From contig NZ_JAODIW010000006.1 in the NCBI RefSeq assembly GCF_026586625.1, forward strand, positions 1 through 64,000: DNA of 64,000 nucleotides, in the 5' to 3' direction. Made by a program: the position numbers and the translations under genes. Under the pieces are notes generated by a model that saw only the letters and a program-made list of their open reading frames with translations, made no database searches and had not been told where the DNA came from. Positions 9,303-17,262 of this stretch are shown piece after piece. The stretch is from Halobium salinum. GTDB taxonomy: Archaea; Halobacteriota; Halobacteria; Halobacteriales; Haloferacaceae. Each line of letters opens with the position of its first letter. Positions within the stretch are counted from its first letter, which is position 1.

Positions 9303-10816
9303 CAGTACAGCACCTCCGTCTCCCGCAGCAGTTCCAGGTCACACAGCGTCCCGTGCACGTCGCGGATGTCCTCGAAGCCGTACATGAGCATGAGCAGTCG
9401 TTCGAGCGCCAGTCCCCAGGCCATCACGTCGCAGTCGATGCCGAGCGGTTCGAGCACCTCGGGACGGAACATCCCGCTGTTGCCGATTTCGATGAGTTCG
9501 CCCGTCTCCGGATGTCGCCCGAACAGTTCGAACGACGGCTCCGTGTACGGGTTGTAGTGCGGTTTGAACTGCACGTCGGTGATGCCGAACTGCCGGTAGA
9601 ACTCCTCGAAGGTGCCCATCAGGTCCCGCACCGAGAGGTCCTCGGCCATCACCCACCCCTCGATTTGGAAGAACTCCAGCAGATGGGTGGGGTCGAGCGT
9701 GTCGTTGCGGTACACCTTCTCGACGGAGAAGTACCGCTGTGGCGGCTCCAGGTCGCCGACGGCCTCCCCGGAGAGGTAGCGCATCGACAGCGACGTGGTG
9801 TGCCCGCGCAGGGCGACCGCCCGGGCGAACTCCTCGCTCCACGGCGAGTGGTAGCCGTCGCCGTCGTCGCCGACGCCGTTTCGGTGGGCGTCCTCGACCC
9901 GGTCGACCAGGTCCTCGGGGAGGTCGTGGATGGGCGGGACGTCCAGCGCGAAGCGGTCCCAGTGGGTGCGCGCCGGGTGGTCCTGGGGCATGAACAGGCA
10001 GTCGTTTATCCAGAAGTCCGCGTCGGCGTGGGGGCCCTCCATCTCCTCGAACCCCATCCCGACGAGGGTGTCCTTCACCCGGTCGGCGGTCTGTCTGAGG
10101 ATGTGGACCTTCCCGCCCGACGCCTCGTCGGCGTCGGCCTCGACGTTGTACTCGGTGAACTCCACGTCGCGCCACTCGCCGGAGGTGAGCAGTTCGGGCG
10201 TGAGGCGGTCGACGGTCTGGGCGGCTTCGACGCCCTCCATCAGGAGCGTGACGCCGTCGTCGGTGAGCGTCACCGACCGGACCGTGCGCTCGGATATCGC
10301 GACGAGCCCCCTGCTCTCCAACTGGTCGAGGGTGTCGCCGTCGACCGATTCGGCGTCGCCGGCGGCGACCGCATCGAGCGCGGCGGCCTCCGCGTCGCTC
10401 TCGGGGTCGGCGTCGGCCGCGGCGGTTATCTCTCCGCCGCCGATGTCGCCGTACCCCTTCCGGGCGTAGTTCGAGAGGGCGATGTCGACTTCGGGGCCTT
10501 CCAACCCGGAGGCGCCGATGACCTGCCCCATCGGGGCGGGGTCGTCGGCGGCACCCGCGTCGCGGGCGGCCTCGTAGAGGCGGACCTCGGGGAGGGCGGC
10601 CTCGCGGTACGTCTCGCCCTCGTCGGTGAGCGAGGCGGTCGACTCTTCCTGTTCCTCGATAGCGACCAGACCGGCGTCGCGGAGGTCGAAGACCGCCCCC
10701 GTCACCGTCTCCGGCTTGCGGCCGGTCGCGTCGGCCAGTTCGTCTATCGTCAGTGCGTCGGTCGCGCTCGCGGTCTCCAGTACCGCGACCTGCGCGTCCG
10801 GGAGTCGCGTGGACAT
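9302..10816 (-). CDS. pheS: Phenylalanyl-tRNA synthetase alpha subunit
   Basis: A 504-residue catalytic subunit of PheRS, class II. The N-terminal 200 residues include winged-helix DNA/RNA-binding-like segments (TIDELADATGRKPETVTGAV), typical of archaeal PheS. The catalytic half holds PAHLLEF-type motif 2 sequences (DPTHLLEFFQIEGWVM), VQFKPHYNPYTEPSFE and motif 3 WGLALERLLMLMYGFEDIRD, with the Phe-binding GNSGMFRPEV between them. The ATG at 10816 opens MSTRLPDAQVAVLE. It is the first gene of the pheST operon; the 316-base gap upstream carries its promoter, but no sharp TATA box is visible. Confidence 0.96.
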   Translation of the reverse strand: MSTRLPDAQVAVLETASATDALTIDELADATGRKPETVTGAVFDLRDAGLVAIEEQEESTASLTDEGETYREAALPEVRLYEAARDAGAADDPAPMGQVIGASGLEGPEVDIALSNYARKGYGDIGGGEITAAADADPESDAEAAALDAVAAGDAESVDGDTLDQLESRGLVAISERTVRSVTLTDDGVTLLMEGVEAAQTVDRLTPELLTSGEWRDVEFTEYNVEADADEASGGKVHILRQTADRVKDTLVGMGFEEMEGPHADADFWINDCLFMPQDHPARTHWDRFALDVPPIHDLPEDLVDRVEDAHRNGVGDDGDGYHSPWSEEFARAVALRGHTTSLSMRYLSGEAVGDLEPPQRYFSVEKVYRNDTLDPTHLLEFFQIEGWVMAEDLSVRDLMGTFEEFYRQFGITDVQFKPHYNPYTEPSFELFGRHPETGELIEIGNSGMFRPEVLEPLGIDCDVMAWGLALERLLMLMYGFEDIRDVHGTLCDLELLRETEVLY

Positions 10817-10980
10817 GGCGTGGTCTTGTTGCGGTAAGTGTCGGGTCGTCAGTTAGCCGTTCCGCTATCTCTCGGCCCCGCGGCGCTCGCTCGACGGGAG
10901 ACGCCGTGCGGGACCCTGCGCCGAACCGGTCGGGTTCGTCCCTCGGTCGCTCTCGCGGCCTCGGGAGTCCACCGGCCGCC

Positions 10981-11058
10981 TCAGGCGCCGAAAAAGAGTC
11001 CGAACCCGTCGGTGGTCGTCTCGCGTACGGTCCGCTGGACGCCGGGTTCGGACGTCAT
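10981..11058 (-). CDS. Possible 25-residue microprotein
   Basis: A tiny frame between pheS and the PRC-barrel genes starts with ATG at 11058 and ends with TGA at 10981. It reads MTSEPGVQRTVRETTTDG, then FGLFFGA. Most codons end in G or C, as in real genes here, and the mix of charged N-terminus and aromatic C-terminal tail is not random GC-rich sequence. No family is recognised and no TATA box is sharp. It could equally be chance; conservation in related genomes would settle it. Confidence 0.3.
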   Translation of the reverse strand: MTSEPGVQRTVRETTTDGFGLFFGA

Positions 11059-11132
11059 ACTCGGCAGGTGGCGGTGTCGGGAGAAAAGCGTTCGGGAGCG
11101 GAGCGCTCGGGGGTCGTCGGCCCGGAAGGCGC

Positions 11133-11387
11133 TCAGAAGCAGGTCTGTGAGAGCCGGACCTCGTCGCGACAGACGACGGCGACGCGTTCGTAGCGCAGCG
11201 GGTGGGCTTCGTCGTCGACGTAGTCGGTCCAGCCGAGGGTCGCGGCCACGGCGTCGGCCACGTCGGGGTCGAGCCGGAGGTACGCGACGCCGCCCTGCAC
11301 CTCGACGATGCGGCCGACGGGACGGCCGTTCGCGTCGGCGACGGGCTTTCCCTCGTCGGAGTCGCTGAACGCCAGTTCGGTGCTCAT
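11133..11387 (-). CDS. PRC-barrel-like protein, paralog 1
   Basis: An 84-residue acidic protein with the PRC-barrel pattern: MSTELAFSDSDEGKPVADAN, then GRPVGRIVEVQGGVAYLRLDP, a helix around VADAVAATLGW and a final strand RDEVRLSQTCF. PRC-barrels are small beta-barrels found in RNA-processing and photosynthetic proteins; the role of these haloarchaeal single-domain forms is unknown. It is the most diverged of three tandem relatives, with a Cys-Phe end and a longer loop. It lies 33 bases beyond the stop of paralog 2 and may be co-transcribed with it. Confidence 0.82.
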   Translation of the reverse strand: MSTELAFSDSDEGKPVADANGRPVGRIVEVQGGVAYLRLDPDVADAVAATLGWTDYVDDEAHPLRYERVAVVCRDEVRLSQTCF

Positions 11388-14757: not shown

Positions 14758-15591
14758 TCAGTGGTCGGCGAGAACGTCCGCGACGCCCTCGAGGACCTCC
14801 GAGCGGTAGGTGGTGCGCGCCTCGTAGCACTGTTCGAGCTGAATCCCGGCGGCGCCGCTCGCGGTCAGCCAGTTGACGAAGTTCTCGGAGCTCGACCCGT
14901 CGCGGGCGTCGTCGGCGCCGACCTCGACCCGGAACGCCCCGCCGACGGCGTCCGAAATCGAGTCGCGAACGGCCTCGCGCAGTTTCCGGGGTGCCCCCCC
15001 GCCGACCGCGACGTGGGACTCGCTCCACCCGTGGAAGGAGACCGCCCGCTCGAACCCCACGTCCGCGATGCGGTCCAGCCCCGGGAACGAACCGGGGTGG
15101 ATGTCGGCCGAGGAGACGTGCCAGCGACGGTACGCCCCGCCGCCGTCGTTCCAGCCGGAGCAGTACCAGAGCGTCCCACCCAGCCAGTCGGACAGCCGCT
15201 CGGCCTGCTCGTCGGTACCGTACTCGACGTACCCGCCGTGCGGGGCACAGACGGCGAGTTTCGACGAGCGCTCGACCGTCCGTTCGACGAACTCGCTCCT
15301 CGCCCGAGCGGTCGACTCGTCGTAGTCGGGGTGCGGGACCACGGCGTCGAGCGTCCCCTCGAAACGCTCCTCGGACGCTTCTATCCGAGAGCGGCCGTCC
15401 GGGTTGACGGCGACGGAAGCGTCCGTACCGCGAGAGACGGTGAACAACGCACACGTCCCGCCGTGCCAGAGGCGAACTTGGTGTCCGACCTCGACCGACA
15501 GCTCCTCGAGCGTCGACTCGGGGACCGCACACCGTCCCCGCGGCGTCGACGCGTCGACTTCGACCTCGACCGGAACGTCGGTCGACGTCAT
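14758..15591 (-). CDS. Poly-gamma-glutamate hydrolase family protein, no signal
   Basis: A 277-residue member of the PGA hydrolase family (DUF867), zinc peptidases related to carboxypeptidases that cut gamma-linked polyglutamate. The metal-site pattern is clear: CAPHGGYVEYGTDEQAERL and, about 65 residues on, RAVSFHGWSES; RRWHVSSADIHPGSFPGL lies between. It is paralogous to the product at 18493-19647 but has no Tat motif from this start. A longer in-frame start at 15771 would not add a signal either. It diverges from the pgsC-pgsB operon, suggesting shared regulation. Cytoplasmic location is inferred; an alternative is a non-PGA amidase. Confidence 0.82.
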   Translation of the reverse strand: MTSTDVPVEVEVDASTPRGRCAVPESTLEELSVEVGHQVRLWHGGTCALFTVSRGTDASVAVNPDGRSRIEASEERFEGTLDAVVPHPDYDESTARARSEFVERTVERSSKLAVCAPHGGYVEYGTDEQAERLSDWLGGTLWYCSGWNDGGGAYRRWHVSSADIHPGSFPGLDRIADVGFERAVSFHGWSESHVAVGGGAPRKLREAVRDSISDAVGGAFRVEVGADDARDGSSSENFVNWLTASGAAGIQLEQCYEARTTYRSEVLEGVADVLADH

Positions 15592-16110
15592 CGTCCGTGG
15601 TTCCCCCGACGAGGCCCGCCGGCTCCGGGTGCCACAGGACCGAGTCTCGTCTGTCGGGACCTGCGGTGTGATGGCTGGTTCACGTTCGACGAGGGCCGCT
15701 GCTGGACCATATAGGTCAGGCAACCGGTCGGAAACGGCCGCGGTTCCCCGCCGGTTACCGCTCCATGCCATTCCATTCCGGCTCCCGAGGGCGACGGCCG
15801 TCCGCGTGCCCGGCGGACGATACGCCGTCCCACGAGACGAGCCGACACGATTCACGACACCCGTGTACACGGGACGGTGCGGTCGACCACGAACCGGGTT
15901 CTCGGCGCCGCTACGGCGGGTTCGTCCGCGTCCGTTGCCGCTGTTTCGGACCGTTTTCCTCAGTTGTCTATTCCAACCGCTGATTGGTCTGACGTCTATT
16001 AACTACACAACGAGTATTACCTCCCGTATAAGAAAGGGTCCCCAGCACGAGGGGTTTCGTCGTACGATGAAACACGGAGATGCAGAGTCGACGAAGCGGA
16101 GAAGCCGAAC
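15592..16110. promoter_or_regulatory. Divergent control region of the PGA locus
   Basis: These 519 bases separate the leftward hydrolase-family gene from the rightward pgs operon. The right third is unusually AT-rich for this genome (TCTATTAACTACACAACG near 15995) and carries a plain TATA box, TATAAGAAA at 16027-16035. Leftward, CTATATGG on the minus strand near 15708-15715 is a candidate TATA box about 115 bases before the hydrolase start. A 15-codon frame at 16067-16114 occupies the start of the rightward transcript. Confidence 0.55.
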
Positions 16111-16114
16111 GTGA
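16067..16114 (+). CDS. Possible 15-residue leader peptide
   Basis: From the TATA box at 16027, transcription should begin near 16055, so the first ATG on the message is the one at 16067. It opens a 15-codon frame, MKHGDAESTKRRSRT, whose TGA stop (16112-16114) overlaps the GTG start of pgsC in a GTGA. This is the arrangement used elsewhere in the window for coupled genes. Coupling of pgsC translation to this mini-frame is an inference; chance is a fair alternative. Confidence 0.3.
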   Translation: MKHGDAESTKRRSRT

Positions 16115-17262
16115 TAGTCGCCGCGGTCGTACTGTTGCTGGGACTCCTCGCGGGCGTCGCCGCGACGCAGATTTGGGGTCTTCGACTGTCGGGCGTGCTG
16201 GTCGTCCCGCTGTTCGCGCTGTACACCCTGTTCGACTTCACGTCGCTGCCGATTATCCTGGCGAGTGTCGCGCTCGCGTACGTCGGCGTCGGACTGGTTC
16301 ACGAACACACGCTGCTGTACGGACGCCGACTCCTGTACATCGCCATCGGTCTCGGCGCGTCGATACCGCTGGCCGTGACTGCGGCGCTCTCGCTCCGGTT
16401 CGGCGTGACGACGCCGGTCGAGGCGCTGTCCATCGGGAGCGTCCTGCCGGGCATCGCCGCGTACAACCTGCACCGTCTCGACGGGGAGCGCCGCGTCGAC
16501 GACGTTATCGCGAGCGCCGCGGCGTTCGTCGGACTCGTCGTCCTCGGCGCGTCACTGGTCACGCCGACGGTGGCACGGCTCGTCGCCGGCGTGACGCCGC
16601 CGGTACTGTTCGGTCAGGGGTCGGACATCGCCGCCCTCCGCGGGGTGGCCACCCTGGGCGGCGGCGACCCGACGGTGCTCGGCCCGGCGGTCGGGTCGCT
16701 CGTCGTCCTCGCCGGCATCGTCCTCTCGGGGCTGTACGAGGACATCTGGAACGTCAGGCTGCTGGGGCTCATCACCGTCCCCCTGCTCGCGCTCCTCCTC
16801 TTTCGCGACCCGGCGCTGGTCGGCCTGTACGTGGTGGCCGTCCCCGTCGTCTACGCGGTCACGACGCTGGTGAACCGGCGGACGCTCATCTACGGGCGCG
16901 TCCTGCTGTCGATATCCATCGGCGCCGGAGTCGTGCTGTCGCTCGCGCTCTCGACGTTCTACCCGGTCGTCTCCGGCCACTCGCTGCTCGTCACCGCGAT
17001 GCTCGTCGGCGTCGGCGGGTACAACCTGCATCGAATCTCTCCGGGACGCCGCCTCCACACGGTGGGCGTCTCCACCGGGAGCTTCGTCGCCTTCGTCGGC
17101 GTCGTCCACCTCCTGACGCGGGCGTACGCGCCGTTCGACTCGCAGGTCGCCGTCCTCGTCGGCGCGGTGCTCTGTGTCCCTGCCGTGCTGCTGGTGTTCG
17201 ACCTGGAGCGGAAACGCCGCCGGGACAACCGACTCTCCGAGACCCCGTACACGCACACATGA
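16111..17262 (+). CDS. pgsC: Double-length PgsC/CapC membrane protein
   Basis: A 383-residue integral membrane protein made of two PgsC-like halves. Bacillus PgsC is about 150 residues. Both halves show the family pattern: a first helix block, then LLYGRRLLYIAIG (first) and LIYGRVLLSISIG (second), then LPGIAAYNLHRLDGERR and VGVGGYNLHRISPGRR. PgsC partners the ligase PgsB to make and thread poly-gamma-glutamate through the membrane. About ten hydrophobic segments are visible. The start is a GTG at 16111; the N-terminus IVAAVVLLLGLLAG matches the first family helix. Its stop overlaps the pgsB start (ATGA). Confidence 0.86.
   Translation: MIVAAVVLLLGLLAGVAATQIWGLRLSGVLVVPLFALYTLFDFTSLPIILASVALAYVGVGLVHEHTLLYGRRLLYIAIGLGASIPLAVTAALSLRFGVTTPVEALSIGSVLPGIAAYNLHRLDGERRVDDVIASAAAFVGLVVLGASLVTPTVARLVAGVTPPVLFGQGSDIAALRGVATLGGGDPTVLGPAVGSLVVLAGIVLSGLYEDIWNVRLLGLITVPLLALLLFRDPALVGLYVVAVPVVYAVTTLVNRRTLIYGRVLLSISIGAGVVLSLALSTFYPVVSGHSLLVTAMLVGVGGYNLHRISPGRRLHTVGVSTGSFVAFVGVVHLLTRAYAPFDSQVAVLVGAVLCVPAVLLVFDLERKRRRDNRLSETPYTHT

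Follow-up and report, generated by a model that had tools for sequence, protein, structure and literature searches.

Bacterial poly-gamma-glutamate (PGA) synthesis, in which PgsC/CapC (TIGR04011; PF14102) works with the Mur-type ligase PgsB/CapB, offers the closest described counterpart of the genes considered here. In Bacillus subtilis, PgsB and PgsC without PgsA reportedly yield large amounts of PGA with 95% L-glutamate, PgsB without PgsC yields no PGA in vivo, and the programme SOSUI predicts five helices in PgsC (PMC6029982). Archaea also make the polymer: Natrialba aegyptiaca is reported to secrete L-PGA of more than 10,000 residues (PMC4187202). A 2015 BLAST survey reports that PgsC was not found in archaea (PMC4497714), and the Haloquadratum genome paper names both capC and capB (PMC1544339). 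The PgsC/CapC family and its name are in any case already known in haloarchaea through RefSeq annotation, where nine haloarchaeal plasmid records of a 'poly-gamma-glutamate biosynthesis protein PgsC/CapC' are 33–38% identical to the protein described below – six of them covering at least 80% of the query – with no mention of a doubling. The portions of the literature reached by our searches on PgsC/CapC held no description of a doubled PgsC, which is weak evidence of absence.

The capC/pgsC-like gene of Halobium salinum lies in a window of 64,000 nucleotides (positions 1 to 64,000 of contig NZ_JAODIW010000006.1), and its product consists of two complete PgsC/CapC domains joined end to end (Table 1). 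The GTG start matches the first aligned residue in its relatives.

Table 1. Features of the capC region of Halobium salinum (positions in the window)
Feature	Position	Strand	Details
Second PF05908 gene, divergent, upstream of capC	14758..15870	-	53.1 bits
capC/pgsC-like gene, two tandem PgsC domains	16111..17262	+	383 aa, GTG start
N half, aa 1-161, more canonical PgsC domain	16111..16593	+	PF14102 82.8 bits alone
Acidic linker between halves (part), aa 162-187	16594..16671	+	acidic loop 149-191; no long helix in model
C half, aa 188-348, second PgsC domain, more diverged	16672..17154	+	PF14102 48.0 bits alone
Extra C-terminal helix past both PgsC units, basic end, aa 344-377	17140..17241	+	model, sequence
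capB/pgsB-like Mur-type ligase, 413 aa	17259..18500	+	PF08245 33.5 bits, cut-off 24; GTRGKS motif
Gamma-PGA hydrolase family gene (PF05908), 384 aa	18493..19647	+	36.4 bits, cut-off 22

Within the whole reading frame PF14102 (Caps_synth_CapC) matches twice, at 16138–16494 (83.5 bits) and 16714–17043 (49.4 bits), and each half scored separately exceeds the curated cut-off of 27 bits, so that a profile search places both halves, and not one, in the PgsC family. The preliminary description, which had proposed two PgsC-like halves in one 383-residue chain on the strength of a YGR and a YNLHR motif in each, is thus borne out: all four motifs that it quoted are present in the translation. The gene shares with Bacillus PgsC/CapC the PF14102 match of each half, the adjoining Mur-type ligase and the YGR and PG/YN-type motifs; it differs in having two domains and an extra C-terminal helix rather than one domain of about 130–150 residues, and in missing the PgsC equivalog TIGR04011 (model length 132), against which it scores 39.8 bits for a cut-off of 96.45. 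The cut-off is also missed, at 31 bits, by the single-domain archaeal form found in Methanomicrobiaceae (L057/L071, L072), a protein of 159 residues and one domain that scores 60.5 bits against PF14102, is followed by a PgsB gene and has the same helix plan in its model.

The likeness of the two halves is far beyond chance. Aligned with the C-terminal part (residues 176–383), the N-terminal part (residues 1–175) is identical in 60 of 172 columns (35%), with a BLASTP E-value of 3e-24 against a one-sequence database, without composition correction or filter. Their alignment scores 203, which compares with a mean of 59 and a maximum of 104 in 1000 shuffles made in windows of 10, which preserve the hydropathy pattern. 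Comparison of profiles built from 17 relatives per side gives a probability of 99.7 (E 5e-26); taken separately, the first portions of the two halves match each other (98.8), as do the second portions (97.9). A further repeat inside each PgsC unit, of a 3+3 kind (transmembrane helix, short Pro helix, transmembrane helix, twice), was hinted at by the resemblance of P33-A36-Y38 to P113-A116-Y118; it is rejected for now, as the profile match does not rise above chance: with shuffled columns the observed score was reached in 15 of 60 and in 59 of 60 trials.

An AlphaFold2 model of the doubled protein, built from CapC and 33 relatives (pLDDT 89.1, pTM 0.88), places helices at residues 2–22, 31–41, 45–67, 72–97, 104–109, 112–122 and 125–149 of the N half and at 192–213, 222–232, 235–258, 262–280, 289–308 and 311–336 of the C half. 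The helix starts at 2, 31, 45 and 72 recur at 192, 222, 235 and 262, an offset of 190–191, and the start at 125 recurs at 311, an offset of 186 past the 5-residue gap of the sequence alignment. Judged by this helix register, the predicted structure repeats one helix plan across the halves and so suggests the internal pseudo-symmetry expected of a doubled protein. The same plan is seen in the model of the single-domain L071 protein from a Methanomicrobiaceae metagenome-assembled genome (pLDDT 84.8), with helices at 3–24, 30–43, 47–68, 74–95, 103–108, 112–122 and 127–154. Neither model led to a known fold: Foldseek returned nothing at E ≤ 0.001 for either, and the best VIA-align Z-scores, 6.0 for the doubled model (ABCB1) and 6.4 for the single one (ALMT12), fall within the chance range stated by the tool. 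A sequence search of a copy of the PDB gave no clear solved relative, and kinship with Ninjurin-2 (E 0.003) or TMEM14A (E 0.006), whose profile matches span a few helices, was not accepted.

How the two halves sit in the membrane can be approached through the charges of their loops. Fused antiparallel pairs should carry opposite charge bias in their two halves. Among 75 distinct double proteins, however, loops 1, 3 and 5 carry more lysine and arginine than the remaining loops in all 75 N halves and in 74 of the 75 C halves; the positive bias is thus shared by homologous loops, and the opposite bias of a fused dual-topology pair is not found. By the positive-inside rule, the two halves are probably parallel, and since halves of the same orientation must each cross the membrane an even number of times, the four long and two short helices predicted for each – an even count – would most simply be read as six crossings. 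The linker loop (residues 149–191), with a mean of 1.64 K/R and 3.41 D/E in the 75 proteins, is probably outside the cell. An antiparallel arrangement, as in fused dual-topology transporters, would follow if the five helices predicted for Bacillus PgsC (PMC6029982) held for each unit, because a five-crossing unit copied in direct tandem would flip; the charge pattern speaks against such a flip, as does the even helix count, and we consider this arrangement very improbable. The earlier suggestion that the fusion fixes the orientation of two subunits agrees with their shared charge bias, which points to a parallel pair built into the chain, and it is fair to suppose that their stoichiometry is fixed as well.

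These 75 proteins were distilled from 92 full-length HMM matches after dropping those below 300 bits or short of the whole model, a set that leaves out the single-domain L057, L071 and L072, the broken or partial L019, L040, L058, L061, L062, L063 and L109, and the divergent, full-length L065. Both halves keep R25/R216, G28/G219, G71-R72/G262-R263, G114/G300, Y118-N119/Y304-N305 and R128/R314, each at 85–100%, while P113, D131, Y38 and G11 are invariant in the N half only; of the motifs, the GR of YGR and the YN are invariant in the wider family in the N half, and YGR and the Y in the C half. Because the two halves share the former residues and only the N half has the latter, the N half appears, from sequence conservation, to be the more canonical of the two and the C half to be conserved but specialised, without decay.

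One might instead suppose that the N half alone works as PgsC, with the C half left over from the duplication as a structural element or a decaying remnant: the N half scores higher against PF14102 (82.8 against 48.0 bits), its invariant P113, Y38 and D131 lack a counterpart among the conserved positions of the C half, and the C halves diverge faster. Yet the C half has its own invariant residues in the 75 proteins (G219, Y261, G262, R263, G300 and Y304, all 100%) and others conserved at 93–98% (R216, L259, L265, H307 and R314), and only one of 43 loci in the family survey (L118) has a frame too short for a full C half. Such a remnant seems to us decidedly unlikely, and a conserved, specialised C half the better description.

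Far from being an oddity of the Halobium salinum genome, the doubling is the usual form in the class to which that genome belongs. CapC matches occur in 38 of the 170 genomes of the family survey, and 42 of their 43 loci – counted from N-half rows only, and including G069:C4:29215 despite one TAG in its frame – are open over 383 codons or more; the remaining one, L118, has 305 codons and ends inside the C half. Of the 292 genomes in the class sample, 67 have a match, mostly in double-length frames; the short or broken exceptions include G297 and G230 (frames interrupted between or within halves) as well as G191. The phylum sample has 22 matching genomes out of 294, nine of them outside the class: seven of the nine have a frame with two matches, the gene of G513 is single-domain, and the match in G548 is short, with a TAG in frame. 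Named carriers include Haloferax, Halorubrum, Haloarcula, Natrialba, Natronomonas and Methanohalophilus; Natrialba, the genus of the PGA-secreting N. aegyptiaca, is represented by a strain with a double CapC (L098), in which a weak, below-cut-off match to Acyl_transf_3 was also seen. When genome contigs were scanned with an alignment of CapB, 41 loci came up, every one of them archaeal; a tblastn search of plasmids with a single-domain PgsC gave no match, and a scan of viral contigs gave no relative. The doubling is, then, a lineage-wide architectural variant among the sampled archaea; that it is confined to archaea is not claimed.

Some individual loci depart from the common form in other ways. 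L058:4089-4628 (minus strand) and G548 carry a shortened single CapC region with in-frame TAG codons, perhaps a decaying remnant. At L062 (3985-4644 and 4620-5144) and in G297, CapC falls into two overlapping frames, the break lying where the C half begins, through a frameshift or a sequencing error. A replicon of 107,228 bases (L119/G069:C4) bears capC twice, with a capB-like frame after each copy and capA just upstream of the second copy only.

The history of the doubling was read from a tree to which 45 proteins – those left of the 75 after an 80% identity filter – contributed both halves (90 in all), together with two single-domain forms. All 45 C halves form one clade (support 100/98), which rules out several independent fusions, and the N halves group together with weak support (43/48), a node on which the placement of the single-domain forms depends. 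The distances among N halves and among C halves are correlated (r 0.85, reached by none of 999 permutations), and the C halves evolve slightly faster, with a mean p-distance of 0.63 against 0.57. Since the C halves are monophyletic and the two sets of distances go together, one old duplication followed by joint inheritance would explain the doubled forms. The nearest kin of the Halobium salinum protein in the tree are those of G042 (80% and 69% identical in the two halves) and G266. In a quick tree, which included a sequence that we take to be Bacillus PgsC, the methanogen doubles L054 and L059 nest among haloarchaeal sequences in both halves, and gene transfer between haloarchaea and methanogens therefore appears likely from the sequences.

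Whether the doubled protein has the expected partners is a matter of gene order. The capB start overlaps the capC stop by 4 bases, which gives the adjacent ligase gene of a PgsBC synthase, and the hydrolase gene overlaps capB by 8 bases; where the Bacillus operon has capA, the Halobium salinum operon has this PF05908 gene instead. No pgsA/capA gene is found in the operon, the nearest PF09587 match being at C11:127766, some 110 kb off. The preliminary description had suggested that the fusion could substitute for a missing partner, a suggestion that finds no support: CapA (PF09587) is present in 17 of 38 genomes with CapC and in 54 of 132 without it (Fisher p 0.71), and in five of the 38 (G054, G069, G073, G108 and G120) a CapA match lies about 0.9 kb upstream of the double CapC. 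Because CapA is as common without CapC as with it, and lies upstream of doubles in these five genomes, substitution for CapA is rejected; the partner would in any case be dispensable if the archaeal enzyme resembled that of B. subtilis, for which PGA production by PgsB and PgsC alone is reported (PMC6029982).

As for the product, the best NCBIfam match of CapB is TIGR04012, at 108.3 bits for a cut-off of 222.7; with both proteins below their equivalog cut-offs, they are relatives rather than certified members of the PgsB and PgsC families, and their product is not assured. The pair might accordingly make another acidic polyamide or a polymer-linked product, such as the backbone of glutaminylglycan, rather than free gamma-PGA, and haloarchaeal CapB has been suggested for glutaminylglycan, itself built on poly-gamma-L-glutamate (PMC11915815). 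Against this, genes of the gamma-PGA hydrolase family PF05908 flank the operon and also lie near capC in G042, G266 and G063, an argument qualified by the lack of a significant association across genomes (hydrolase in 4 of 38 genomes with CapC and 5 of 132 without, p 0.11). On balance we regard a product other than free gamma-PGA as unlikely, if worth keeping in mind. The hydrolase gene after capB is common to G042 and G266, and the bracketing of the capCB pair by two PF05908 genes recurs, among the 169 other genomes of the family, only in G042 (L114).

The reading that we favour, with a probability of about two in three for the account as a whole, is that of a single duplication and fusion giving a parallel, covalently linked pseudo-dimer, which works together with CapB as the membrane component of a poly-gamma-glutamate synthase. 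It is shown by sequence, tree and predicted fold that an ancestral gene for one PgsC domain underwent a single tandem duplication with fusion, and that this preceded the spread of the sampled doubles through Halobacteria and some methanogens. Going by charge bias and the model, both halves would be the same way round, with an even number of crossings, most simply six, the linker would be outside, and a 13th helix would bring the C-terminus inside. The gene order and the example of Bacillus PgsBC suggest that the pseudo-dimer, together with the adjacent CapB, would form the membrane part of the synthase, holding CapB and passing the growing chain out; the N half would retain the canonical features and the C half would be conserved and specialised. 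By extension, bacterial PgsC may be a homodimer.

What makes such a protein of interest is its bearing on the PgsBC polymerase, in particular on subunit stoichiometry, topology and the route of export. A natural fused pair implies two PgsC units side by side and parallel; a parallel pair calls for an even number of membrane crossings, which questions the five-helix prediction for Bacillus PgsC; and the fusion hints that the single-copy bacterial protein works as a pair. Fused CapC would also be a handy target for structural work and for changes to a single unit.

A more specific idea concerns the export route itself. In the plant ALMT anion channels, six-helix subunits pair and the pore is formed by TM2 and TM5 of both (PMC11842843). 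The single-domain PgsC model is weakly similar to five of six ALMT entries (Z 5.1–6.4 over 137–145 residues, rmsd 5.3–5.9; the sixth gives Z 3.8), the Z-scores being within the chance range for helical bundles, with Foldseek E above 1 and no sequence match. Taken with the paired arginines, this weak similarity led us to consider PgsC as a paired polyanion export channel of ALMT-like plan – two units of six crossings each, fused in these archaea and homodimeric in bacteria – in which the short Pro/Gly helices 2 and 5 from both units would line a central conduit, with R25/R216, R72/R263 and R128/R314 forming a basic cytoplasmic entrance that takes gamma-PGA from CapB. We put this forward as a speculation that is rather improbable in its full form.

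The ligase, too, varies among relatives. CapB has an N-terminal extension in some methanogens and haloarchaea (L060:2180-3769; L119:4346-5920 and 9535-11142), which is absent from the Halobium salinum protein. In L060 the extension bears a weak resemblance to the HVO_2922 domain (18 bits, cut-off 90), and the two L119 proteins are tied to the extended group by similar N-terminal letters.
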